A stretch of DNA of 61,620 nt from Lachnospiraceae bacterium. GTDB taxonomy: Bacteria; Bacillota; Clostridia; Lachnospirales; Lachnospiraceae. A program made the translations under genes and the position numbers. Each line of letters opens with the position of its first letter. Positions within the stretch are counted from its first letter, which is position 1. The notes beneath the pieces were generated by a model. It made no database searches, had not been told where the DNA came from, and saw only the letters and a list, made by a program, of their open reading frames with translations. Where the stretch lies: contig JAFXFO010000015.1 of NCBI GenBank assembly GCA_017520425.1, positions 1-61,620 of the forward strand, given 5' to 3'. Positions 13,401-59,746 of the stretch are shown here, piece by piece.

Positions 13401-13412
13401 TTACTGTAACTG
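13306..13412. repeat. Long inverted repeat overlapping the valS 3' end
   Basis: The outer arms are CAGTTACAGTA (13306-13316) and TACTGTAACTG (13402-13412), and the inner arms are GGGGATACCTATCCC and GGGATAGGTATCCCC (15 bases, perfect), with GGCTT and AAGCC between them. The right outer arm encodes the last valS codons and stop. The structure probably marks the valS 3' end, but no good T-run follows on the minus strand. Confidence 0.7.
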
Positions 13413-16061
13413 TGCCAGTCGCTCCTTAACCTGTTCCATCATCTGGGTGTATTTGGCCAGCTTGGCTTTTTCTTCTTCGATTTTGGCTGCAGGTGCCTTG
13501 GAAACGAATTTCTCATTGGAAAGCATGCCGTTTACACGTGCAAGCTCGCCCTGAAGACGCTTCTCTTCCTTCTGTAAACGCTCGATTTCCTGAGCTATAT
13601 CAACCAATTCTGCGAAAGGAATGTAAATAACCGCACCGGGGATTACTACGGATACCGCATCCTGTGCGATACCTTCCTTATCAGACTGAATCAGTACTTC
13701 GTTTGCATAAGCTAAGGATGCAAAGAAGAGCTTACCTTCGGTGAAGGTGTTACGGATATCTTCGCTTTCACTTACTACGATACACATTGCCTTACGGCTG
13801 GGTGCTACGTTCATTTCACTACGGATATTACGGATACCGCGTACTGCTTCCTTGATGATTTCGATGTCCTTTTCTTCTTTTTCAAAGCTTCTGTCAGCGA
13901 TGAATTCTGGCCACTTGCTGATCATGATGGACTCTTCTTCGCTCTGTAAGGTACAGAAGATTTCTTCTGAGATGAAAGGCATATACGGATGTAATAATTT
14001 CAGTGCATCGATAAGTACATTCTTTAAAGTCCAGAGTGCTGCATTCTGGCTTACTGCATCGTCAGAATTGTAGAGACGAGGCTTAACCATTTCGATATAC
14101 CAGTCACAGAACTCATCCCAGATAAAGTCGTAAACCTTCTGTACTGCAATACCTAGTTCGAAGCTTTCCATATTGTCAGTGACATCCTTTACCAAGGTAT
14201 TTAACTTGGAAAGAATCCACTTATCTACAGGTGCCAATTCGTTTACTGCAGGAGTGGTTACATTCTTGCCTTCCATATTCATCATAATGAAACGGGACGC
14301 GTTCCAAACCTTATTTGCAAAGTTACGGCTGTTTTCTACTCTTTCGTAGTAGAAACGCATATCATTACCCGGTGCATTACCGGTGATTAAGGTCAAACGA
14401 AGTGCATCCGCACCATACTGCTCGATAATCTCCAGAGGGTCGATACCATTGCCCAAAGACTTAGACATCTTACGTCCCTGACTGTCACGAACCAAACCGT
14501 GGAACAATACAGTGGAGAAGGGCTTCTTACCCATCTGCTCAAAGCCTGAGAAAATCATACGAATTACCCAGAAGAAGATAATATCATAACCGGTTACCAA
14601 TACATCCGTAGGATAGAAATAATCCAAATCCTCGGTTTTGTCCGGCCAACCTAAAGTCTCAAAAGGCCACAACGCAGAAGAGAACCAGGTATCCAAAGTA
14701 TCAGGGTCCTGAGTCAAATGGGTACAACCACATTTAGGACATACGGTTACTTCTTCCTTAGCAACGGTTACTTCCCCACACTCGTCACAGTAGTACGCAG
14801 GAATTCTGTGTCCCCACCAAAGCTGACGGCTGATACACCAATCGCGAATGTTGTCAGTCCAGTTGTAATAGGTCTTTTCCATTCTTTCGGGAATCAGCTT
14901 AATCTCGCCGGTCTTAACCGCTTCTACAGCAGGCTTAATCAGCTCATCCATCTTTACAAACCACTGCTCTTTTACCATAGGCTCGATGGTGGTCTTACAT
15001 CTGTCATGGGTACCTACATTATGTGCATGGTCTTCAATCTTAACAAGAAGTCCCATAGCATCCAGCTCTTCTACGATAGCCTTGCGTGCATCGTAACGAG
15101 CCATGCCTTCGAACTTGCCACCGTTTTTGTTGATGGTAGCATCGTCATTCATTACGTTGATAATAGGCAGGTCATGTCTCTTACCAACTTCAAAGTCGTT
15201 AGGGTCATGTGCCGGAGTAATCTTTACTACACCGGTACCGAATTCCATATCTACATAGGTATCGGTTACGATGGGAATCACTCTGTTCATAAGAGGAAGC
15301 ATTACGCTCTTACCGATTAAGTGCTGATATCTTTCATCATCAGGATGAATTGCTACTGCAGTATCACCCAACATAGTCTCAGGTCTGGTGGTAGCAAAGG
15401 TCAAAAATTCTGTGGTACTGGGGGTACCGTCATCATTCATAATGGGGTACTTAATATGCCAGAAATGACCTGCCTGCTCCTCATAAACTACCTCTGCATC
15501 AGAGATAGAGGTATTACAAACAGGACACCAGTTGATAATTCTTGCGCCCTTGTAGATATATCCTTTTTCATGCATCTTTACGAATACTTCCGTAACCGCA
15601 TTGTTACAACCTTCGTCCATGGTGAAACGCTCTCTGTCCCAGTCACAGGAAGAACCCAGCTTCTTTAACTGGGAGATAATACGTCCGCCGTACTCCTTCT
15701 TCCACTCCCATGCACGCTCTAAGAATTTCTCACGGCCAAGCTCCCACTTGTCGATGCCTTCTTCCTTCAGCTTATCGATAATCTTTACTTCCGTTGCAAT
15801 ACTTGCATGGTCTGTACCGGGCTGCCAAAGAGCATTGTAACCCTGCATTCTCTTGAAACGAATCAGGATATCCTGCATGGTATTGTCCAAAGCATGTCCC
15901 ATGTGTAACTGTCCGGTAATATTCGGAGGGGGAATCACGATAGTAAAAGGTTTCTTGGTTCTGTCAACCTCAGCATGGAAATATTTCTTCTCCAGCCACT
16001 TCTGATACAATCTGTCTTCTATGCCCTGGGGGTCATAGGTTTTTGCTAATTCTTTGCTCAT
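13401..16061 (-). CDS. valS: Valyl-tRNA synthetase
   Basis: ValS charges tRNA-Val. The 886 residues show the class I HIGH motif as HMGH ([15 protein letters not shown]), the editing domain with [14 protein letters not shown] and [15 protein letters not shown], two CxxC zinc pairs (CDECGE, CPKCGC), KMSKS within [14 protein letters not shown], and a C-terminal coiled coil from about residue 820 ([22 protein letters not shown]). The length is normal. AAAGGAG precedes ATG 16061. The gene is controlled by the T-box leader upstream. Confidence 0.97.
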
Positions 16062-16083: not shown

Positions 16084-16124
16084 CGTAAAGACGCCCTCTG
16101 CTAACCTAAGTTAGCAAAGGGCGT
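16084..16124 (-). terminator. T-box leader terminator
   Basis: On the minus strand GTTAGCAGAGGGCGT and its partner give a 15-base stem with one mismatch, followed by CTTTACGTTT. It lies just after the T-box sequence and just before valS, so it is the regulated terminator of the riboswitch. Confidence 0.8.
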
Positions 16125-16350
16125 TATATTCTACGCGGTACCACCTTTGTTCGTGGCATATGCCACCTCAGCGACTTCCATCAAAGTCCTATCCGTTAAC
16201 GGGGATAAATCGGGAACTCCTACTATTACTTCAGAGCTCCTGCTCAGAAGCTACCTTCCGCATCCCTTCCTTAAAGCCACCTCGCAGCACTATCCGTGGC
16301 TCTCTCTGATAAGGGGTAATCCGTACTCCTCTTCCTCATCGCAATTGCTA
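16090..16350 (-). promoter_or_regulatory. T-box riboswitch controlling valS
   Basis: The minus strand carries the T-box sequence AAGGTGGTACCGCG at 16134-16147, which pairs with the uncharged tRNA acceptor end. It also has a stem I with an AGAGAG element and a distal GCTGCGAGG region, and the terminator at 16084-16124. Uncharged tRNA-Val should stabilise the antiterminator and switch valS on. A GTA (valine) at 16227-16229, in GAAGTAA on the 3' side of stem I, is my candidate specifier codon; that assignment is by position only. Confidence 0.9.
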
Positions 16351-52086: not shown

Positions 52087-52104
52087 GACTTTTGTAATTA
52101 AATA

Positions 52105-52195
52105 AACCGCTAGGGGAGCGCATCGCTGAGATTGAGGCCCACGGGCTTCTAACCCTCATTACTTGAACCGGGTAATACCGGCGTAAGGAAGCATT
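52105..52195 (+). promoter_or_regulatory. TPP riboswitch aptamer
   Basis: The THI-box is clear: CTAGGGGAGCG, then CGCTGAGATTG, ACCC, and the second half TTGAACCGGGTAATACCGGCGTAAGGAAGC. It senses thiamine pyrophosphate and controls the thiamine transporter downstream. Confidence 0.96.
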
Positions 52196-52251
52196 TAAAA
52201 GACAACCGTAATCTACTTTCACACCATGGTTTCTTTTAAGCAAGATGAGCC

Positions 52252-52282: not shown

Positions 52283-52945
52283 ATGTTCTACAATGTTGTT
52301 GTCAACGACTGGGGCGAAACTACTTATGTCCCCACCACACTGGGTAACCTATGCCTGGTTGTCCTGATTCTGGTTCTGCTTTTTATAGCAGCCGGCTTTC
52401 TTAAAAAGCGCAGCAAAAAGCTTTCTGCCCAGCAGCTGGCCTTTTGTGCTGTTGCCATCGCCTTAGGTACGGTGCTGTCCAATATCAAGGTGATCAGCTT
52501 CCCTTTCGGTGGCTCAGTTACTTTACTATCCATGCTGGTCATCTGTCTGCCCGGTTATTGGTTCGGTCTGGGTGCCGGCATCCTTACCGGTGTGGCTTAT
52601 GGTGTTCTGCAGATGCTCTTTGACCCCTACATACTGTTTCCTGCCCAGCTGGTAGTGGATTATCTGCTGGCCTTCGGTGCACTGGGTCTTTCCGGATTGT
52701 TCAGCAAGCGAAAATATGGACTGATTACGGGCTATATCGCAGCTGTTTTGGGGCGCTATGTCTTTACCGTATTGTCCGGCTGGCTCTTTTTCGGCATGTA
52801 CGCTTGGGAAGGCTGGAATCCCCTGCCTTACTCCCTGGTCTACAATGGTATCTATATCTTTGCGGAAGCCGTGGTGACCATCGTGGTACTTCTGTTGCCC
52901 CCGGTAAGAAAAGCGCTGGAACAGGTTAAGAAACAGATTTGCTGA
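52283..52945 (+). CDS. thiT: Thiamine ECF transporter S component ThiT
   Basis: ThiT binds thiamine at the membrane and works with the shared ECF module. The 220 residues contain six or seven hydrophobic helices and the ThiT-like LLSMLVICLPGYWFGLGAGILTGVAYGVLQMLFDPYILFPAQLVVDYLLAF region. An extra N-terminal helix (about 18-40) precedes it. AGGAGG lies seven bases before ATG 52283. The TPP riboswitch upstream confirms a thiamine role. Confidence 0.94.
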   Translation: MFYNVVVNDWGETTYVPTTLGNLCLVVLILVLLFIAAGFLKKRSKKLSAQQLAFCAVAIALGTVLSNIKVISFPFGGSVTLLSMLVICLPGYWFGLGAGILTGVAYGVLQMLFDPYILFPAQLVVDYLLAFGALGLSGLFSKRKYGLITGYIAAVLGRYVFTVLSGWLFFGMYAWEGWNPLPYSLVYNGIYIFAEAVVTIVVLLLPPVRKALEQVKKQIC

Positions 52946-52951
52946 TAATAC

Positions 52952-52987
52952 AAAAAGAGAGGACACAAACGTGTCCTCTTACTTTTT
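52952..52987. terminator. Bidirectional terminator between thiT and tyrA
   Basis: AGAGGACAC and GTGTCCTCT pair around AAAC. On the minus strand TCTTTTTG follows, giving a good terminator for the aromatic operon; the plus side (TACTTTTTG) is weaker. It overlaps the tyrA stop codon. Confidence 0.88.
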
Positions 52988-53836
52988 GTCAAATAATGCT
53001 CTGCGCTCCGTGGAATAACGCATCATCTTTTTCATGCCTTCCACATCTTCTTTCTCCAGCATTTCCTTTAATTCGGCAAATTTATCCATAAACAGATTCA
53101 TCTGTTCCAAAAGTGCTTCTTTGTTGGCTACAAACAGCTCACTCCACATCATTTCATTAATCCTTGCAATACGTGTCAGATCCCGGAAGGAGTCACCGGT
53201 GAACTTCTCCATATCCTCCTTTTCATTGCAGGTCATCAAAGTAATGGCAATGCAATGGGTCAATTGGGACAGGAAACCAATCATTTCATCATGTTCTTCC
53301 GGCGAAAGTGTGGTTACATTAGAAAAGCCAAGCAATCTTCCCAGCTCCATACAGGTTTGAATGGCTTCGGGGGTGTTTTTCTCCGTGGGTGTTACAATGT
53401 AGTTGGCCCCTGCAAAAATCTTATCCGTACTGTTCTCCACACCGGAAACCTCACGACCGGCCATAGGATGGGCCGGCACGAACTCCACATCCGGCCGTAA
53501 GATATCCTGGATACGATAAACAATGCTCCCCTTTACACCGGTTACATCCGTGATAATGGCACCACTTTTCAAAAGCCCCTGATTTTCCTCAATCCATTCC
53601 ACAAATATGTGAGGATAAAGTGCAAAGATTACCAGGTCCGCATCCCCGATGATTCTTTCATCAAGCTCTGTACTTCCCTCGTCAATGATCTTTTCCCCCA
53701 TGGCATAATCGATGGAGCTTTGATCCTTGGTAATAGCGCTGATATGAAAACCAAACCGCTTTAAAGCCCTGGCATAACTACCGCCCAAAAGGCCCAGTCC
53801 CACAATCAGTATTTTCTTGCTTACATCTACTATCAT
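52979..53836 (-). CDS. tyrA: Prephenate dehydrogenase
   Basis: TyrA oxidises and decarboxylates prephenate to 4-hydroxyphenylpyruvate, the tyrosine branch. The 285 residues have the NAD-binding GLGLLGGSYARAL, VIFALYPHIFVEW, ITDVTGVKGSI and the substrate region PAHPMAGREVSGVENS. No ACT domain follows, so feedback control, if any, lies elsewhere. GAGGG precedes ATG 53836, two bases after aroQ. It is the last gene of the aro operon. Confidence 0.94.
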   Translation of the reverse strand: MIVDVSKKILIVGLGLLGGSYARALKRFGFHISAITKDQSSIDYAMGEKIIDEGSTELDERIIGDADLVIFALYPHIFVEWIEENQGLLKSGAIITDVTGVKGSIVYRIQDILRPDVEFVPAHPMAGREVSGVENSTDKIFAGANYIVTPTEKNTPEAIQTCMELGRLLGFSNVTTLSPEEHDEMIGFLSQLTHCIAITLMTCNEKEDMEKFTGDSFRDLTRIARINEMMWSELFVANKEALLEQMNLFMDKFAELKEMLEKEDVEGMKKMMRYSTERRALFDKK

Positions 53837-53837
53837 T

Positions 53838-54266
53838 TTATTTACCCTCGCATAAATAGTCGATTGCTTCCAGATATCCGTCGGTTCCGTGACCGGTAAT
53901 GGTTTTCACACAGGCAAGGCGTATATAGCTAATCTGTCTGAAATCCTCCCGCTCTTCCACCTTGGAAATATGTACCTCCACCGTAGGAATATTAACTGAT
54001 TTTACGGCATCCAATATGGCAATGCTTGTATGGGTATAAGCTCCCGGATTGATGACGATTCCGTCCGCATCTCCATAGGCCTTTTGAATGGCATCCACCA
54101 AATCACCCTCATGATTGGATTGATATAATGCAACCTCTATCCCTTTCTTCTCACAGTGGTTTTGAATTTTGGTTACCAAGTCTCCATAGGTTTCCCTGCC
54201 GTAATGATCCGGCTCTCTGATTCCCAGCATATTAAGATTGGGACCGTTTATCACAAGAATTTTCAT
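53838..54266 (-). CDS. aroQ: Type II 3-dehydroquinate dehydratase
   Basis: AroQ converts 3-dehydroquinate to 3-dehydroshikimate. The 142 residues show GPNLNMLGIREPDHYG (with catalytic Tyr in the flexible loop region), NPGAYTHTSIAILDAV, EVHISKVEEREDFR with the conserved His/Arg and the end CVKTITGHGTDGY. Length is typical. Its ATG overlaps the aroE/K stop by four bases (ATGA). Confidence 0.96.
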   Translation of the reverse strand: MKILVINGPNLNMLGIREPDHYGRETYGDLVTKIQNHCEKKGIEVALYQSNHEGDLVDAIQKAYGDADGIVINPGAYTHTSIAILDAVKSVNIPTVEVHISKVEEREDFRQISYIRLACVKTITGHGTDGYLEAIDYLCEGK

Positions 54267-55510
54267 AGTATCAATTCCTCTCGTTTTGTCATAATGTAGT
54301 CTGCTTCAGCCTGCGCTGTGGCCATATCAGGCACGATTACATCCGCTGTTTTTTGGTAAATGGGCATTCGTTCCTCATACAGCTTCTTTAACTTGTCATA
54401 GGTATCTGACAAGGGTCTGTCATTGGTTGCACGCAAACGCTGAATATCCGCATTGATGAAAAACAGCTTTCCGTTTCTCTTTAGATTCCTTACGTTTTCC
54501 TCCCGAAGGATTGCACCGCCTCCGGTGGAAATAATGCGACTGCCGACACAGGATACCTCACTGATTACCTGCGTTTCCAAATCCCGGAAATAGGTCTCTC
54601 CTCTAGTCTTTATCAGTTCACTTATGGGACAACCGCAGCGTTTCTCTATCTCTGCATCCGTATCAATAAATTCGTAGCCTTCTATGTGCAACAGTCTGCC
54701 TACGGTGCTTTTTCCGCTTCCCGGCATACCGGTCAAAACAATATTCTCCTTGGATGCCATCACAGAGGCAAATACCCTGTCTGCTACATCTTTCTGCACG
54801 GAAGTATCCAAAAATCTCTCAACCGCCACTACTGCCTGCATTACCAGCATGTAGAGACCACCTTCTGACTTTATATCCCTTTCCTTTGCATCCAGCACCA
54901 GATTGGTACAAAGAGGATTATAGACAGCATCAATCACACCCTCTAACTTTCCGAAGCCGCTGATATCTATGGGCTTGGATCCACAATCCGGATACATACC
55001 GGAGGGCGTGGTATTGATGATTACATTTGCGTCAGAATGCTCACTTACTGCTTCTTCATAGGTGATGAATTCATCGGTTTTACGCCTACTTACGGTCAAT
55101 ACCTCAGAGGCACCCAAATCCTTTGCCAACACATTGGCGGTCTTGCTTGTTCCGCCCGTACCCAGTACCAGCACCTTCCTGCCGCCCACTTCAATCCCTA
55201 CTCTTTCCAGCAAGGCCTTCATTCCGTAATAGTCCGTATTGTAGCCATATAGCTTTCCGTCTTTATTTACAATGGTATTGACAGCTCCGATTCGGGATGC
55301 CACTTCACTTACCACATCCAAATAGGGGATAACCGTCTGCTTATAGGGTATGGTTACATTGATAGCCGCAAATTCCTTCTTTTCAAAGAAAGGGGCAATC
55401 TCCTCTTCCGTCAACTCTATTAATTCATAAGCATAATCCGCCAACTTTCCATGAATCTCCTTGGAGAAACTATGTGTCAACTTTTTGCCGATACAACCAT
55501 ATTTTTTCAT
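54263..55510 (-). CDS. Shikimate dehydrogenase-shikimate kinase fusion
   Basis: Residues 1-260 form AroE: shikimate-binding THSFSKEIHGKLA, catalytic Lys in NVTIPYK, NTDYYG, NADP-binding VLGTGGTSKTANVLAK, and a C-terminal MLVMQAV. Residues 268-415 form AroK: P-loop TGMPGSGKSTVGR, FIDTDAEIEKRCGCPISEL, FRDLE, STGGGAI and the lid RPLSD. Two consecutive pathway steps (dehydroshikimate to shikimate to shikimate-3-phosphate) are joined in one polypeptide. ATG 55510 is preferred, with GAAGGA upstream; the frame from 55558 overlaps aroC. Confidence 0.95.
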   Translation of the reverse strand: MKKYGCIGKKLTHSFSKEIHGKLADYAYELIELTEEEIAPFFEKKEFAAINVTIPYKQTVIPYLDVVSEVASRIGAVNTIVNKDGKLYGYNTDYYGMKALLERVGIEVGGRKVLVLGTGGTSKTANVLAKDLGASEVLTVSRRKTDEFITYEEAVSEHSDANVIINTTPSGMYPDCGSKPIDISGFGKLEGVIDAVYNPLCTNLVLDAKERDIKSEGGLYMLVMQAVVAVERFLDTSVQKDVADRVFASVMASKENIVLTGMPGSGKSTVGRLLHIEGYEFIDTDAEIEKRCGCPISELIKTRGETYFRDLETQVISEVSCVGSRIISTGGGAILREENVRNLKRNGKLFFINADIQRLRATNDRPLSDTYDKLKKLYEERMPIYQKTADVIVPDMATAQAEADYIMTKREELIL

Positions 55511-55535: not shown

Positions 55536-56624
55536 TTATCCAAGCCAATCCGTACCAAATCTCATGGCCAGGGCATCGCACATAACAATGGCTGCTGCCG
55601 CATCCTGGACGATTCTTGCTCTGTGTACAATGGCCGGGTCATGTCTGCCCTTAGGTGATAATACAGCTTCCTCCATTGCCCTGAAATCAATGGTATCCTG
55701 GGGCTTAAAGATGGTGGGCGTGGGCTTGATTGCCGTACGGAACACAATGGGCATACCATTGGTAATACCACCGTTGATACCGCCGTTATTGTTGGTGGTA
55801 GTCACCACCTTATTCTCCTCCAGCCGCATGGGGTCATTTGCCATGCTGCCTCGCATATCCACAATATCAAAGCCGGCTCCAAACTCGATACCCTTTACGG
55901 CAGGAATGGAGAACATCATATGGGAAAGCATACTTTCCACAGAGTCAAACCAAGGCTCTCCTACGCCTTCCGGCATACCAAGAATAACTGTTTCCAGCAC
56001 TCCGCCTACACTGTCTCCTTCCGAAGCTGCCTGCAGAATTGCTTCACGCATTGCCTCTCCCTTTTCTTCATCCAATACCGCAAAAACTTTTTCGTTCAAA
56101 TCCTTTACATCTTCTGACAGATTATCGAAATCCCTGTCTGAAACACCGCCACAACGTTTCACATGGGTTCCGATCAGAATATCCTTCTGTTCCAAAGCAT
56201 ATTTGCAGATGGCACCTGCTGCCACAAGTGCCGCCGTGATACGGCCGCTGAAATGTCCGCCGCCTCTGGAATCCTGAAATCCGTGATATTTGCATTCTGC
56301 CGTATAATCCGCATGGGAAGGACGGGCCACTGTTTTCATCTGAGAATAATCTCCGCTCTGTACATTCTCATTGGGAATCAGAATGGTGATGGGAGTACCG
56401 GTTGTTTTGTCATTCACCACACCGCTGACAATACGAAACTCATCCTTTTCCTTTCGGGGTGTGGATATCCTTCCGTCGGGACGACGAAGTGTAAGCATAT
56501 GTGCAATATATTCTCTGTTGATATCCAGGCCGGGTGCCAAACCGTCGATAACCGCTCCGATTGCTTCCCCGTGGCTTTCACCGAAAAGAGTCACTGCCAC
56601 GCTGTTACCAATTGTATTCTTCAT
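55536..56624 (-). CDS. aroC: Chorismate synthase
   Basis: AroC converts EPSP to chorismate with reduced FMN. The 362 residues include GNSVAVTLFGESHGEAIGAVIDGLAPGL, RRPDGRISTPRKEKDEFRIVSGV, GFQDSRGGGHFSGRITA and GGINGGITNGMPIVFRTAIKPTPTI, all signature stretches. AGGAGG precedes ATG 56624. It follows pheA by 51 bases. The upstream step enzymes AroA (EPSP synthase) and AroB are not in this window. Confidence 0.97.
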   Translation of the reverse strand: MKNTIGNSVAVTLFGESHGEAIGAVIDGLAPGLDINREYIAHMLTLRRPDGRISTPRKEKDEFRIVSGVVNDKTTGTPITILIPNENVQSGDYSQMKTVARPSHADYTAECKYHGFQDSRGGGHFSGRITAALVAAGAICKYALEQKDILIGTHVKRCGGVSDRDFDNLSEDVKDLNEKVFAVLDEEKGEAMREAILQAASEGDSVGGVLETVILGMPEGVGEPWFDSVESMLSHMMFSIPAVKGIEFGAGFDIVDMRGSMANDPMRLEENKVVTTTNNNGGINGGITNGMPIVFRTAIKPTPTIFKPQDTIDFRAMEEAVLSPKGRHDPAIVHRARIVQDAAAAIVMCDALAMRFGTDWLG

Positions 56625-56675: not shown

Positions 56676-57764
56676 TTATATCTCAACATGTGAAGCAAAG
56701 GTACCTGCCACCTTCAGTTTGTCACACACCTTGCTCAGTTCTTCCATCATTTGTTTGCCTTCAGCAGTTTCTGTGGAACCATCAATTTCCACATAGAAAT
56801 AATACTGCCATGAATGCTTTCTTAAAGGTCTGCTTCGCAGGGCAGTCATATTGTATCCGTATTTACCGATGATACTGATGGCCTGCGCAAGAGAACCTGC
56901 CTCATGCTTTACAGTAAACAACAATACCGAATTGGGAAGCGCCTCTGTATTTGCTTTGACTCTTGAAAGCACCGCAAATCGGGTGGTGTTTTCACTGCTC
57001 TTATTAATCTTACTCTCCAACACCTGCAGTCCGTAAATCTCAGCTGTTTCCACACTGGCAATGGCCGCCAGGGTTTTATCCTTTGCATCCGCCACGCTTT
57101 TTGCCGCAAGAGCCGTATTATTGGACTCTTCTGTCTCCAGCTTCTTAAGGGCTATGTAATCATGACACTGGCTGAGAGCCTGAGGATGGCTGATTACCTT
57201 CTTTACATCCTCCACGGCAGCTCCCGGAACACCCAGAAGATTCTGGTGGATTTCCAGTTCATAGATGCCGTTGATATAAAGGGAACCGGAAAAGATAAGG
57301 TCCATGGTTTGCCCTACTTCTCCTGCGTAGCTGTTCTCAATAGGTAGCACTGCCACGTCATTTTCACCATCCACAACCGAATCGTAGGTTGCCTTAAAAT
57401 CCTTGCAGGATATTCTTTCGCTTTCCGGATAAATCCTGCCGGCTGCTATATGGGCAAAAGCACCTTCCACTCCGCTGTATGCCACCTTCAGACCATTCTG
57501 CATTCTGTACTGATAGGCACGGGATACTGCCATTACATTTTTGATATAATCAATGTAATATCCCTTCAACACCTCATCTTCCACCAGTTCTGCATTCTTT
57601 TCAATGACTGCTGCCTCCCTGACAGCATCCAGAATCGGCAGACCCACCGTTTTCTTATGCTCGTAAACCATTTCGGCAGCCCGCATTCTCTTTATGAAAA
57701 GCTCTGCCATCTTCTCATCTACTTCGTTGATTATTTTTCTTGCTTCCTCTAATTTGTTTCCCAT
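56676..57764 (-). CDS. pheA: Chorismate mutase / prephenate dehydratase
   Basis: PheA turns chorismate into prephenate and then phenylpyruvate. Residues 1-85 form an AroQ-type mutase (KLEEARKIINEVDEKMAELFIKRM), residues 95-275 a prephenate dehydratase with YSGVEGAFAH, LPIENSYAGEVGQTMDL, HPQALSQC and ENTTRFAVL, and residues 280-362 an ACT domain with AGSLAQAISII and ALRSRPLRKHSWQYYFYVEI. The Phe-binding ESRP appears as RSRP, so feedback may be altered. ATG 57764 is preferred with AAGGA upstream; the frame from 57800 overlaps aroF. Confidence 0.95.
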   Translation of the reverse strand: MGNKLEEARKIINEVDEKMAELFIKRMRAAEMVYEHKKTVGLPILDAVREAAVIEKNAELVEDEVLKGYYIDYIKNVMAVSRAYQYRMQNGLKVAYSGVEGAFAHIAAGRIYPESERISCKDFKATYDSVVDGENDVAVLPIENSYAGEVGQTMDLIFSGSLYINGIYELEIHQNLLGVPGAAVEDVKKVISHPQALSQCHDYIALKKLETEESNNTALAAKSVADAKDKTLAAIASVETAEIYGLQVLESKINKSSENTTRFAVLSRVKANTEALPNSVLLFTVKHEAGSLAQAISIIGKYGYNMTALRSRPLRKHSWQYYFYVEIDGSTETAEGKQMMEELSKVCDKLKVAGTFASHVEI

Positions 57765-57777
57765 ATCCAAGCATCCT

Positions 57778-58806
57778 TTACAGTTTTTCAGCAATATCAA
57801 AGATTAATCTCTCGGTTTTTTCCCATCCAAGGCAGGGGTCCGTAATGGATTTGCCGAAGATATGCTCCCCGGCACCCTGTGCACCGTCTTCAATATAACT
57901 TTCTATCATTAAGCCCTTCACCAACTTCTTAATATCACTGTTTTGGTTACGGCTGTGCACAACATCCTTTGCAATACGAATCTGCTCCAAATATTTCTTT
58001 CCGGAATTGTTGTGGTTGGTATCCACGATAACAGAAGGATTGGTCAGGTTCATGGTATGATAAAGCTCTCCCACTCGTAACAAATCTTCATAATGATAGT
58101 TGGAAACGCTTCGACCGCTGTAATCCACGTAACCCCTCAAAATCGCATGGGCGAACTCATTACCCTCACTTGTTACTTCCCAACCTCGGTAAAGGAAGGT
58201 ATGACTGGACTGGGCTGCTACGATGGAATTCATCATAACCACCAAATCACCACCCGTAGGATTCTTCATACCAACAGGGATACCCAAGCCACTTGCTGTA
58301 AGTCTGTGCTGCTGGTTTTCCACGGAGCGGGCACCCACTGCCACATAGGAAAGAAGGTCCGAAAGATAACGATGATTCTCCGGATAAAGCATTTCATCCG
58401 CACAGGAGAAATCATAATCACGTAATGCCGACATATGAAGCTCACGGATGGAAATGATTCCTTTGTACATGTCCGTCTTGGCTTCCGGATCCGGCTGATG
58501 CAACATTCCCTTATACCCCTGACCGGTGGTTCTGGGCTTATTGGTATAAATCCTGGGAATAATAATAATCTTGTCCTTTACCTGATCTTCGATACAACGA
58601 AGTTTTGAAATATATTCCAGTACCGGTTCACTATGGTCCGCGGAACAGGGTCCGATTACCAGTATAAATTTATCCAAACTGCCGTCAAAGACTGCACGGA
58701 TGCTTTCATCCCGTGCATCTTTTACCTGCTTCATGCGCTCTGTCAGCGGAAATTCTTTCTTAACCTCCTGGGGAATGGGAAGTTTCCTGTGGAAATTCAT
58801 CTGCAT
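57778..58806 (-). CDS. aroF: DAHP synthase, first enzyme of the shikimate pathway
   Basis: It condenses phosphoenolpyruvate with erythrose-4-phosphate. The 342 residues fit the class I (AroFGH) type: ILVIGPCSADHSEPVLEYI, PRIYTNKPRTTGQGYKGMLHQPDP, ADEMLYPENHRYLSD, VGARSVENQQHRLTASGLGIPVGMKNPTGG and VDTNHNNSGKKYLEQ. ATG 58806 is chosen, with GAGGT upstream; the longer frame runs into the attenuator. It heads the operon aroF-pheA-aroC-aroE/K-aroQ-tyrA. Confidence 0.96.
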   Translation of the reverse strand: MQMNFHRKLPIPQEVKKEFPLTERMKQVKDARDESIRAVFDGSLDKFILVIGPCSADHSEPVLEYISKLRCIEDQVKDKIIIIPRIYTNKPRTTGQGYKGMLHQPDPEAKTDMYKGIISIRELHMSALRDYDFSCADEMLYPENHRYLSDLLSYVAVGARSVENQQHRLTASGLGIPVGMKNPTGGDLVVMMNSIVAAQSSHTFLYRGWEVTSEGNEFAHAILRGYVDYSGRSVSNYHYEDLLRVGELYHTMNLTNPSVIVDTNHNNSGKKYLEQIRIAKDVVHSRNQNSDIKKLVKGLMIESYIEDGAQGAGEHIFGKSITDPCLGWEKTERLIFDIAEKL

Positions 58807-58839
58807 TGTAGTTACCTCAACTTTCTTTATACGGCTTCC

Positions 58840-58890
58840 AAAATAAAAAGCCCGCACATGTTTACCATAAAAGCACAACAAATGCGGACT
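58840..58890 (-). terminator. Attenuator terminator ahead of aroF
   Basis: On the minus strand AGTCCGCA pairs with TGCGGGCT (one G-U pair) across a 26-base loop and is followed by TTTTTATTTT. It lies between the leader peptide stop (58925) and aroF ATG (58806). An alternative hairpin CGGAC-A-GTCCG just upstream shares its 5' arm and could be the antiterminator or pause fold. Confidence 0.85.
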
Positions 58891-58924
58891 GTCCGTTCTA
58901 TCACCAAAACCTTATTCTTTGGAA

Positions 58925-58984
58925 TCACATAGACGGGCAGCCCACATTAAAATAAAAGTAAAAATACAATACGTTATTCATCAT
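58925..58984 (-). CDS. Leader peptide with Tyr/Phe run (aro attenuation)
   Basis: A 19-codon frame encodes MMNNVLYFYFYFNVGCPSM, with six alternating Tyr and Phe codons in a row. AAAGGAGG lies eight bases before the ATG at 58984. It is followed by the terminator at 58840-58890 and then by aroF. The layout is the classical attenuation design: ribosome stalling at Tyr or Phe codons when those amino acids are scarce should favour an antiterminator and let the operon be transcribed. Confidence 0.88.
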   Translation of the reverse strand: MMNNVLYFYFYFNVGCPSM

Positions 58985-59007
58985 TTTAGCTGCCTCCTTT
59001 GTGATTT

Positions 59008-59041
59008 ATTATAGCATACTTTATCACATTGTTGTGATAAA
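59008..59041 (-). promoter_or_regulatory. aro promoter with a 22-base palindrome
   Basis: TATAAT (59008-59013) lies upstream of the leader peptide; the -35 is poor. A palindrome TTTATCACA-TTGT-TGTGATAAA (59020-59041) overlaps the -35 position. It is a likely operator, adding repressor or activator control to attenuation. No regulator gene for it is identifiable here. Confidence 0.65.
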
Positions 59042-59113
59042 GTCAAGCATCCTGCAAAAAAAAATTGACCTTGTACGTTTGAGTCTGCGAGACCGGATTG
59101 CAAAGGCCCTGTC

Positions 59114-59746
59114 TTATCTTTCCATAATTGCCATAAGTCTGTCAAATATCTCTTCTGCACTATATAAGGCAGGTTGCTTCCCTTCAAACAGCCCTTCTTG
59201 AATCAGTTCCTTTGCTGCTTCCACCCCTTTTGCATTATGTACGGAAAAATCAATCAGAATCCGTTCCAAACGTTCATTGTCTGTACTATACAACAGCTCT
59301 CTGAGTGTCTGAAATGCCCGTTGGATATCGCCGTATTGCTGAGGCATCCATGATATACTTATATTCTTGTTTCTAAGAAAAGTACTGTGCTCTATTAAAT
59401 GCATCGCCCCTCCGTGGGCATCCCTGGCACCAATTACAATCCTTCTGATTCCTCCCATCACCATGGTCCCCATGCACATGGGACAGGGCTCCAAAGAAGC
59501 ATATAATGTATAATTCTTGAGGTTCGGATATCTGTTAATGTCCAGGTTACGAATTGCTTCAACCTCCGCATGGGACACTCTCGGATTAGGGATGGACTCT
59601 TCGCCCACCTTATTTCTTCCTTCTGAAATGATTGTCCCATCATCGGATACAATCAGTGCCGCTATCGCTTTACTTCCTTCACACAAGGACATCCATTCCA
59701 GTTCAAATATTCTTTTCCAATAGAAATCAAGTTCCTGATATCGCAT
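59114..59746 (-). CDS. Nucleoside/cytidine deaminase-family protein
   Basis: The zinc-dependent deaminase motif is present: SHAEVEAI (HAE) and EPCPMCMGTM (PCxxC). The 210 residues resemble the TadA/guanine-deaminase group but have an extra C-terminal helical segment of about 55 residues (LERILIDFSVHNAKGVEAAKELIQEG). Typical TadA proteins have about 150-165 residues, so this is probably not the tRNA editing enzyme. Substrate not known. GGAGG precedes ATG 59746. Confidence 0.8.
   Translation of the reverse strand: MRYQELDFYWKRIFELEWMSLCEGSKAIAALIVSDDGTIISEGRNKVGEESIPNPRVSHAEVEAIRNLDINRYPNLKNYTLYASLEPCPMCMGTMVMGGIRRIVIGARDAHGGAMHLIEHSTFLRNKNISISWMPQQYGDIQRAFQTLRELLYSTDNERLERILIDFSVHNAKGVEAAKELIQEGLFEGKQPALYSAEEIFDRLMAIMER

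Follow-up and report, generated by a model that had tools for sequence, protein, structure and literature searches.

The window, by which we mean the whole 61,620-nucleotide stretch of Lachnospiraceae DNA analysed here, contains an operon for aromatic amino acid synthesis headed by a short open reading frame with a run of Tyr and Phe codons, and the question raised by this locus is how the operon is controlled. T-boxes are the expected control in clostridia. An Rfam 15 scan of positions 58780-59120 found no family at gathering score, T-box family RF00230 included, and a T-box, riboswitch or other catalogued RNA was therefore rejected as the identity of the leader. The single RF00230 match in the same window scan was at 16114-16348, a T-box leader ahead of a minus-strand gene, valS (13401-16061), in which Pfam finds the valyl-tRNA synthetase domain; T-box control is thus in use for a tRNA synthetase in this genome. 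The element in front of the aromatic operon is very probably a ribosome-mediated transcription attenuator of the classic leader-peptide type. An open reading frame with a ribosome-binding site, a Phe/Tyr run, a terminator and an antiterminator exclusive with it were all found and, by masked folding only, a balance between the two helices which shifts between a stalled and a finishing ribosome.

A sequence-only reading of this DNA had proposed a well-translated 19-residue peptide with a YFYFYF run, a terminator and then the genes aroF-pheA-aroC-aroE/K-aroQ-tyrA. The peptide was borne out as an open reading frame behind a strong ribosome-binding site, its translation being predicted, and both the terminator and the gene order were confirmed by RNA folding and Pfam domains. 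The features of the leader gene and the operon are as follows.

59046-59018, minus strand: promoter-like TTGACT-17-TAAAGT with TG ahead of the second hexamer (promoter scan)
58999-58993, minus strand: AAGGAGG, strong ribosome-binding site of the leader, ATG 8 nt further on (sequence)
58984-58925, minus strand: leader peptide open reading frame, MMNNVLYFYFYFNVGCPSM followed by stop, 19 aa (sequence, translation)
58966-58949, minus strand: YFYFYF run inside the leader open reading frame (sequence)
58927-58925, minus strand: leader stop codon (sequence)
57778-58806, minus strand: aroF, DAHP synthase, first operon gene (PF00793)
56676-57764, minus strand: pheA, chorismate mutase-prephenate dehydratase (PF01817, PF00800)
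55536-56624, minus strand: aroC, chorismate synthase (PF01264)
54263-55510, minus strand: aroE-aroK fusion (PF08501, PF01202)
53838-54266, minus strand: aroQ, type II dehydroquinase (PF01220)
52979-53836, minus strand: tyrA, prephenate dehydrogenase, last operon gene (PF02153, PF20463)

Intergenic gaps within the operon are at most 51 nt. The earlier suggestion that one leader would tune both end branches stands in so far as pheA and tyrA are both present; its description of the operon as the complete common pathway was too strong, because aroB and aroA are absent from it. In the host genome, an assembly of 42 contigs that is 90% complete, no match to aroB (dehydroquinate synthase) exceeded the Pfam cut-off, which reflects either a missing contig or real absence of the gene. 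A second aroF in the same genome (L082, contig C4:84893-85918) is 83% identical to that of the window and has no leader within 1500 bases upstream; as judged by eye it resembles the third gene of an operon, after ACT-domain-like and CoA-ligase-like genes. Beyond tyrA and convergent with it lies a 220-aa open reading frame (52283-52945), probably a membrane protein, which is preceded by a TPP riboswitch on the plus strand (52102-52206).

A short open reading frame preceded by a Shine-Dalgarno sequence and containing six consecutive Phe/Tyr codons occurred once in the window and never in 60 dinucleotide-shuffled versions of it. As seven promoter-like sites were found in 1 kb where 2.1 were expected, the site at 59046-59018 is regarded as a candidate promoter; by eye, a TTGACT-17-TATAAT is present at the equivalent place in locus L001.

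Folding of the leader RNA in the window gave three competing folds, with the following parts.

59006-58988, minus strand: segment 1, contains the ribosome-binding site; its partner is segment 2 (58942-58923) (fold)
58948-58929, minus strand: segment 2, antiterminator arm pairing with segment 3 (fold, covariation)
58922-58904, minus strand: small hairpin within the antiterminator loop (fold)
58901-58881, minus strand: segment 3, common to antiterminator and terminator (fold)
58890-58849, minus strand: intrinsic terminator hairpin, 3:4 (fold, covariation, RNAalifold unprompted)
58849-58840, minus strand: T-rich tract after the terminator hairpin (sequence)

Segment 2 can pair with segment 1 or segment 3 and segment 3 with segment 2 or segment 4, each choice excluding the other. 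The 1:2 fold had an energy of -23.8 kcal/mol (z -3.3), the 2:3 fold (58948-58929 with 58901-58881) -28.3 kcal/mol (z -3.6) and the terminator stretch 58914-58841 -23.4 kcal/mol (z -3.7). When the stretch contained both 2:3 and 3:4 it adopted 2:3 (-32.8 kcal/mol, z -2.5), and the entire leader RNA (59010-58815) adopted 1:2 with 3:4 (z -3.65). In several relatives, read by eye, the stop codon lies within a small hairpin. A simple terminator scan gave no site in 58300-59300, since the bulges and long upper part of this hairpin fall outside its short-loop rule.

Relatives of the window's AroF were scanned at 80 loci in 80 assemblies, and a leader was carried by 53 of the 80 genomes with a close aroF. 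Wherever downstream DNA was present the leader lay ahead of the first gene of the aromatic operon, and that gene varied, being aroF, pheA or an aminotransferase. At 19 loci the leader was immediately upstream of aroF, and at 10 further loci with another gene order it lay ahead of pheA or ahead of an aminotransferase gene preceding pheA (class I/II by Pfam in all eight cases tested of a gene separating leader and pheA). Two loci (L004:689-1040 and L017:7583-7955) have a tandem pair of Phe/Tyr leaders before one aroF, each leader with its own terminator-like hairpin. In the remaining 27 of the 80 genomes no leader was found; some of these genomes are fragmentary, and in some the aroF may be a leaderless copy such as L082. 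Locus L029, where aroF is at a contig end, was omitted from the upstream scans, and a search of the whole genome gave no verified leader; for L062, with only about 50 bases upstream, the whole-genome search showed a leader to be present.

For the element a covariance model, R1, was built with four loci, L008, L013, L046 and L048, left out of both the model and alignment A2, and it recovered all four of their leaders. When R1 was run on 40 genomes whose locus was leaderless by open reading frame scans, 23 had a match at E<=0.01 and 19 at E<=1.7e-6, and all 19 of the latter had a leader with Phe/Tyr or Phe codons, while the other four gave no verified leader. By tblastn, 17 of the 19 precede aroF or pheA, either adjacent to it or with one gene in between; of the other two, L144 was placed by eye and Pfam and L142 is at a contig end. 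Five more leaders were obtained (L070-L073 and L076), two of them at modest E-values of 2e-5 and 1e-4, and genome searches gave seven additional ones, for a total of 63 leaders with the window included. As L151 was missed by the terminator rule and is absent from alignment A3, 62 leaders were aligned. Weak matches were judged by open reading frame scan, part of them also by reading the DNA. True leaders before pheA were found at 39.0 (L124), 40.1 (L171) and 34.9 bits (L172), and since L118 scored 39.2 bits (E 3.8e-5) without a leader, R1 can give a false match at about 39 bits.

Besides L118, the model matches not counted as leaders were L156 (37.5 bits), three R1 matches of 16-20 bits, the own-genome matches L113 and L114 (E 6-9), and L119, L125, L126, L128-L132, L136, L157-L161 and L173-L175. 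At L127:1477-1600 a peptide, MNRTNTACFYFYFIKGCVK, precedes a DAHP synthase of another type (ferredoxin-like domain, PF18152) with an aroB-like gene next by eye; its R1 score was 28.8 bits, it is not among the 63, and it is possibly an independent leader.

Both competing helices were supported by covariation. Among 62 leaders the antiterminator 2:3 was paired in 85.8% of cells with double changes in all 11 pairs, and the terminator 3:4 in 88.4% of cells with double changes in eight of nine pairs; in both cases the covariation score was reached by none of 500 shuffles. Because kinship among the sequences can inflate shuffle tests, a control in which partners were slid by 1-3 columns is important, and such slid partners paired in 27-47% of cells (27-42% for 2:3, 30-47% for 3:4). 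The first 32 leaders had given similar values for 2:3 (86.9% of cells paired, double changes in 8 of 11 pairs, 0/500 shuffles) and 3:4 (90.3%, 7 of 9 pairs, 0/500 shuffles). With a measure based on counting pair types, the observed value was reached by 9/500 (2:3) and 17/500 (3:4) shuffles with 32 leaders and by 1/500 and 0/500 with 62. One 2:3 pair (columns 72 and 142 of alignment A1) is mismatched in 23 of the 32 leaders. RNAalifold predicted 3:4 unprompted and left out 2:3, because a single nested structure cannot contain both helices. Against shuffled arms, the duplex z-score for 1:2 fell below -2 in 20 leaders of the 32, that for 2:3 in 27 and that for 3:4 in 31, and the 1:2 helix, being weak in 12 of 32, is less general.

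Phe and Tyr codons were both present in 61 of the 63 leaders; two were Phe only (L124 and L149) and none was Tyr only. With the leader carried by 53 of 80 genomes and its helices covarying, the conservation of codon run and terminator in relatives, by which the sequence-only reading had wished to be checked, was upheld. The two Phe-only leaders lie before pheA (L124:1481) and before aroF-pheA (L149, minus strand, from 1649). Across the 63 there is only one Trp codon; it falls in L120, close to the end of that leader and not in the run. The median leader has four Phe and three Tyr codons, and the longest unbroken Phe/Tyr run has a median of six codons and is of at least four in 58 of 63 leaders.

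For codon positions 61 leaders were aligned on a Gly/Asp-Cys pair that follows the run, so that the Cys is given by the alignment; L020 and L171 are not in this table. The motif begins with Gly or Asp, Cys comes second, and the residue after Cys is Pro in 34 of 61 leaders and Leu in 19 of 61; two leaders lack the motif. Five codons ahead of Gly/Asp-Cys the residue was Tyr in 54 and Phe in seven of 61 leaders, and three codons ahead it was Phe in 47 of 61. The leading edge of the ribosome is taken to lie 12 nt downstream of the first nucleotide of its A-site codon. Under this assumed footprint the fifth position is about the last stall site which would leave segment 2 free. Segment 2 would stay free in 61 of the 61 Tyr-containing leaders if the ribosome stalls at their first Tyr codon, and in 60 of 63 leaders if it stalls at their first Phe codon. 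Counted from residue 5 on, the distance to segment 2 is 14-29 nt for the first Tyr codon and 8-32 nt for the first Phe codon, with a median of 23 for each. The stop codon comes early in the window, 16 nt past the start of segment 2 as compared with a median of 31 among the leaders.

The effect of ribosome position was then estimated by masked folding, in which the RNA up to the footprint edge was left out, the remainder folded, and pairing averaged over six pairs per helix. In the window, a stall at the first Tyr codon gave 0.95 for the antiterminator and 0.08 for the terminator, a ribosome at the stop codon gave 1.00 for the terminator, and the ribosome-free whole leader gave 0.98. At equilibrium the terminator was above 0.5 in 57 of 62 leaders with the ribosome at the stop codon, in 42 of 62 with no ribosome (20 of 62 not exceeding that value) and in 26 of 62 with a stalled one, and the antiterminator was above 0.5 with the stall in 41 of 62. 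In those 26 leaders the terminator prevails at equilibrium despite the stall, so the switch there must be kinetic, set by the order of events; reliance on the order of events is usual for attenuators. When the RNA was made only to segment 3, the antiterminator was above 0.5 with the stall in all 62, a value to be read against a ribosome at the stop codon for which zero is built into the calculation.

These observations suggest the following course of events. The open reading frame with its ribosome-binding site and codon run, the exclusive helices with their covariation, and the operon context come from sequence and comparison; stalling, read-through and the counting of Tyr besides Phe are inferred. 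If both tRNA-Phe and tRNA-Tyr are amply charged, the ribosome would reach the stop codon at 58927-58925 and cover segment 2, and the 3:4 terminator would form ahead of aroF. With either charged tRNA-Tyr or charged tRNA-Phe in short supply, the ribosome would stall early in YFYFYF and leave segment 2 free to pair with segment 3, and RNA polymerase would continue into aroF-pheA-aroC-aroEK-aroQ-tyrA. In a leader that is not translated, 1:2 pairing would hide the ribosome-binding site and the terminator would be free to form.

That the attenuator answers to both Phe and Tyr is predicted with somewhat better than balanced confidence. Neshat et al. in 2014 reportedly described a leader, AroR, before the aroF operon of Corynebacterium glutamicum. 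The passages of PMC11802643 and PMC4046766 on this leader describe a short Phe-Tyr-Phe peptide before a DAHP synthase gene, like that of the window, which acts by ribosome-mediated attenuation and answers to Phe and not Tyr. As that leader is said to answer to Phe alone, two-amino-acid sensing in the clostridial leaders is likely rather than proven, and a response to Phe alone with the Tyr codons merely tolerated is a real though lesser possibility, in keeping with the statement in PMC11802643 that Tyr availability does not matter and with our two Phe-only and no Tyr-only leaders. Against it, Tyr is kept in 61 of 63 leaders at a median of three codons to four of Phe, it predominates over Phe (54 to 7 of 61) at the position five codons ahead of Gly/Asp-Cys, and the operon of the window has tyrA besides pheA. 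As far as AroR is known by description, the clostridial leaders differ from it in their run of median six codons and in the Gly/Asp-Cys segment that follows; AroR is from Actinobacteria and, unlike the operon behind it, that of the window holds both pheA and tyrA.

Two further explanations were weighed, and we consider both improbable. A repressor or another cis element (T-box or riboswitch) could be the main control with the terminator constitutive, and a perfect palindrome, CTTTATCACA-ACAA-TGTGATAAAG at 59042-59019, does overlap the promoter-like site; its core had no further match within the window with up to three mismatches allowed, and an exact search of 176 loci returned the window's own copies only. 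The palindrome was for this reason rejected as a conserved control and could be an operator private to the genome of the window. The best of the weaker Rfam matches had E 0.18, at 22.1 bits where 55.5 were needed, which speaks against a known cis element, and this explanation has very little probability in our view. Still less credible is an active peptide working in trans or by binding something, with RNA pairing secondary: the widespread Gly/Asp-Cys motif with Pro (34) or Leu (19 of 61) after it would fit such a role, with the reservation that its Cys is given by the alignment, but the motif is coded by segment 2, where third codon positions equal the other two in conservation, changes in segment 2 are matched in segment 3, and L020, which lacks the motif, still has the 2:3 helix (duplex z -2.5). 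Ribosome-mediated attenuation is the reading we retain.

The element is rare in the sampled genus, family and class. At E<=0.01 one R1 match was found in the window's own genome, and matches were found in 5 of 101 genomes of the genus (4 verified), 6 of 397 of the family (4 verified) and 12 of 391 of the class (6 verified plus L127). In the family of G594 two of four genomes matched, both verified, and in the family of G597 two of 16, one verified; in the phylum, at E<=0.001, two of 398 matched and the one verified was the window. The taxon sets overlap, stricter filters were applied wherever more than 40 genomes were searched, and the verified counts are lower bounds. Incomplete assemblies can lose the element. 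The four carriers in the genus are the four genomes with an aroF sharing 80% identity or more with that of the window, the next full-length match being 60% identical. At 26 genus loci with a more distant aroF (L086-L111) no comparable Phe/Tyr run was found on either strand; L104 gave one weak candidate, MSRSFLLAVSFYLFFANRHPFAKF, upstream of aroF. An Rfam scan of 20 of these 26 loci found one T-box, also in L104, on the strand opposite to aroF and about 225 bases from its start. It may fairly be inferred that leader and operon were transferred together.

A broader reading, which we regard as evenly poised, joins three parts. In the either-or part, a lack of Phe or a lack of Tyr would each suffice to open the joint operon, since the constrained distance from segment 2 is the same for the first Phe codon as for the first Tyr codon. 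In the self-closing part, segment 2 would shut the ribosome-binding site of its own leader once a round of translation has ended. In the mobility part, the element would travel among gut clostridia with aromatic operons of differing gene order.

The leaders pheL, pheST and trpL of Escherichia coli follow the 1:2, 2:3 and 3:4 logic with runs of cognate codons, one amino acid each. The pairing logic is in common with the window leader, and no sequence relation is claimed. All three are named in PMC11802643. The description in PMC8632094 of the uORFC-13-1 motif, from Acholeplasma and unassigned environmental sequences, is of a candidate Phe uORF, containing one or more Phe codons, and of a terminator ahead of aroF, in these respects like the window leader; unlike it, Phe alone is mentioned there, the comparison being by description only. 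The sequence-only reading had held leader-peptide attenuation to be best known in Proteobacteria, a view that needs qualifying since the relevant passages already report amino-acid leaders in Firmicutes: regular His leader peptides (PMC2965389), His attenuators predicted in several groups (PMC9413887) and the tested branched-chain amino-acid attenuator Rli60 of Listeria (PMC5864092). A Leu-rich leader in Staphylococcus aureus is reported in PMC5794164. As far as these passages go, such leaders are likewise ribosome-mediated and concern other amino acids and operons than here. Given the reports from C. glutamicum and Firmicutes, the mechanism is already known, as is a Phe/Tyr leader ahead of aroF; among the matches listed in the open-access literature there was no Phe/Tyr leader in clostridia. 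An Rfam scan of 20 loci of the leader study returned a sole match, an L10 leader elsewhere in L141.

What is described here is a covarying family of leader peptides for aromatic synthesis in gut clostridia with no match in Rfam release 15, and it is ready for annotation at once. Whether a single run can report two amino acids could be tested on its codon runs and on the two Phe-only members, L124 and L149, which are natural comparisons for Tyr sensing.
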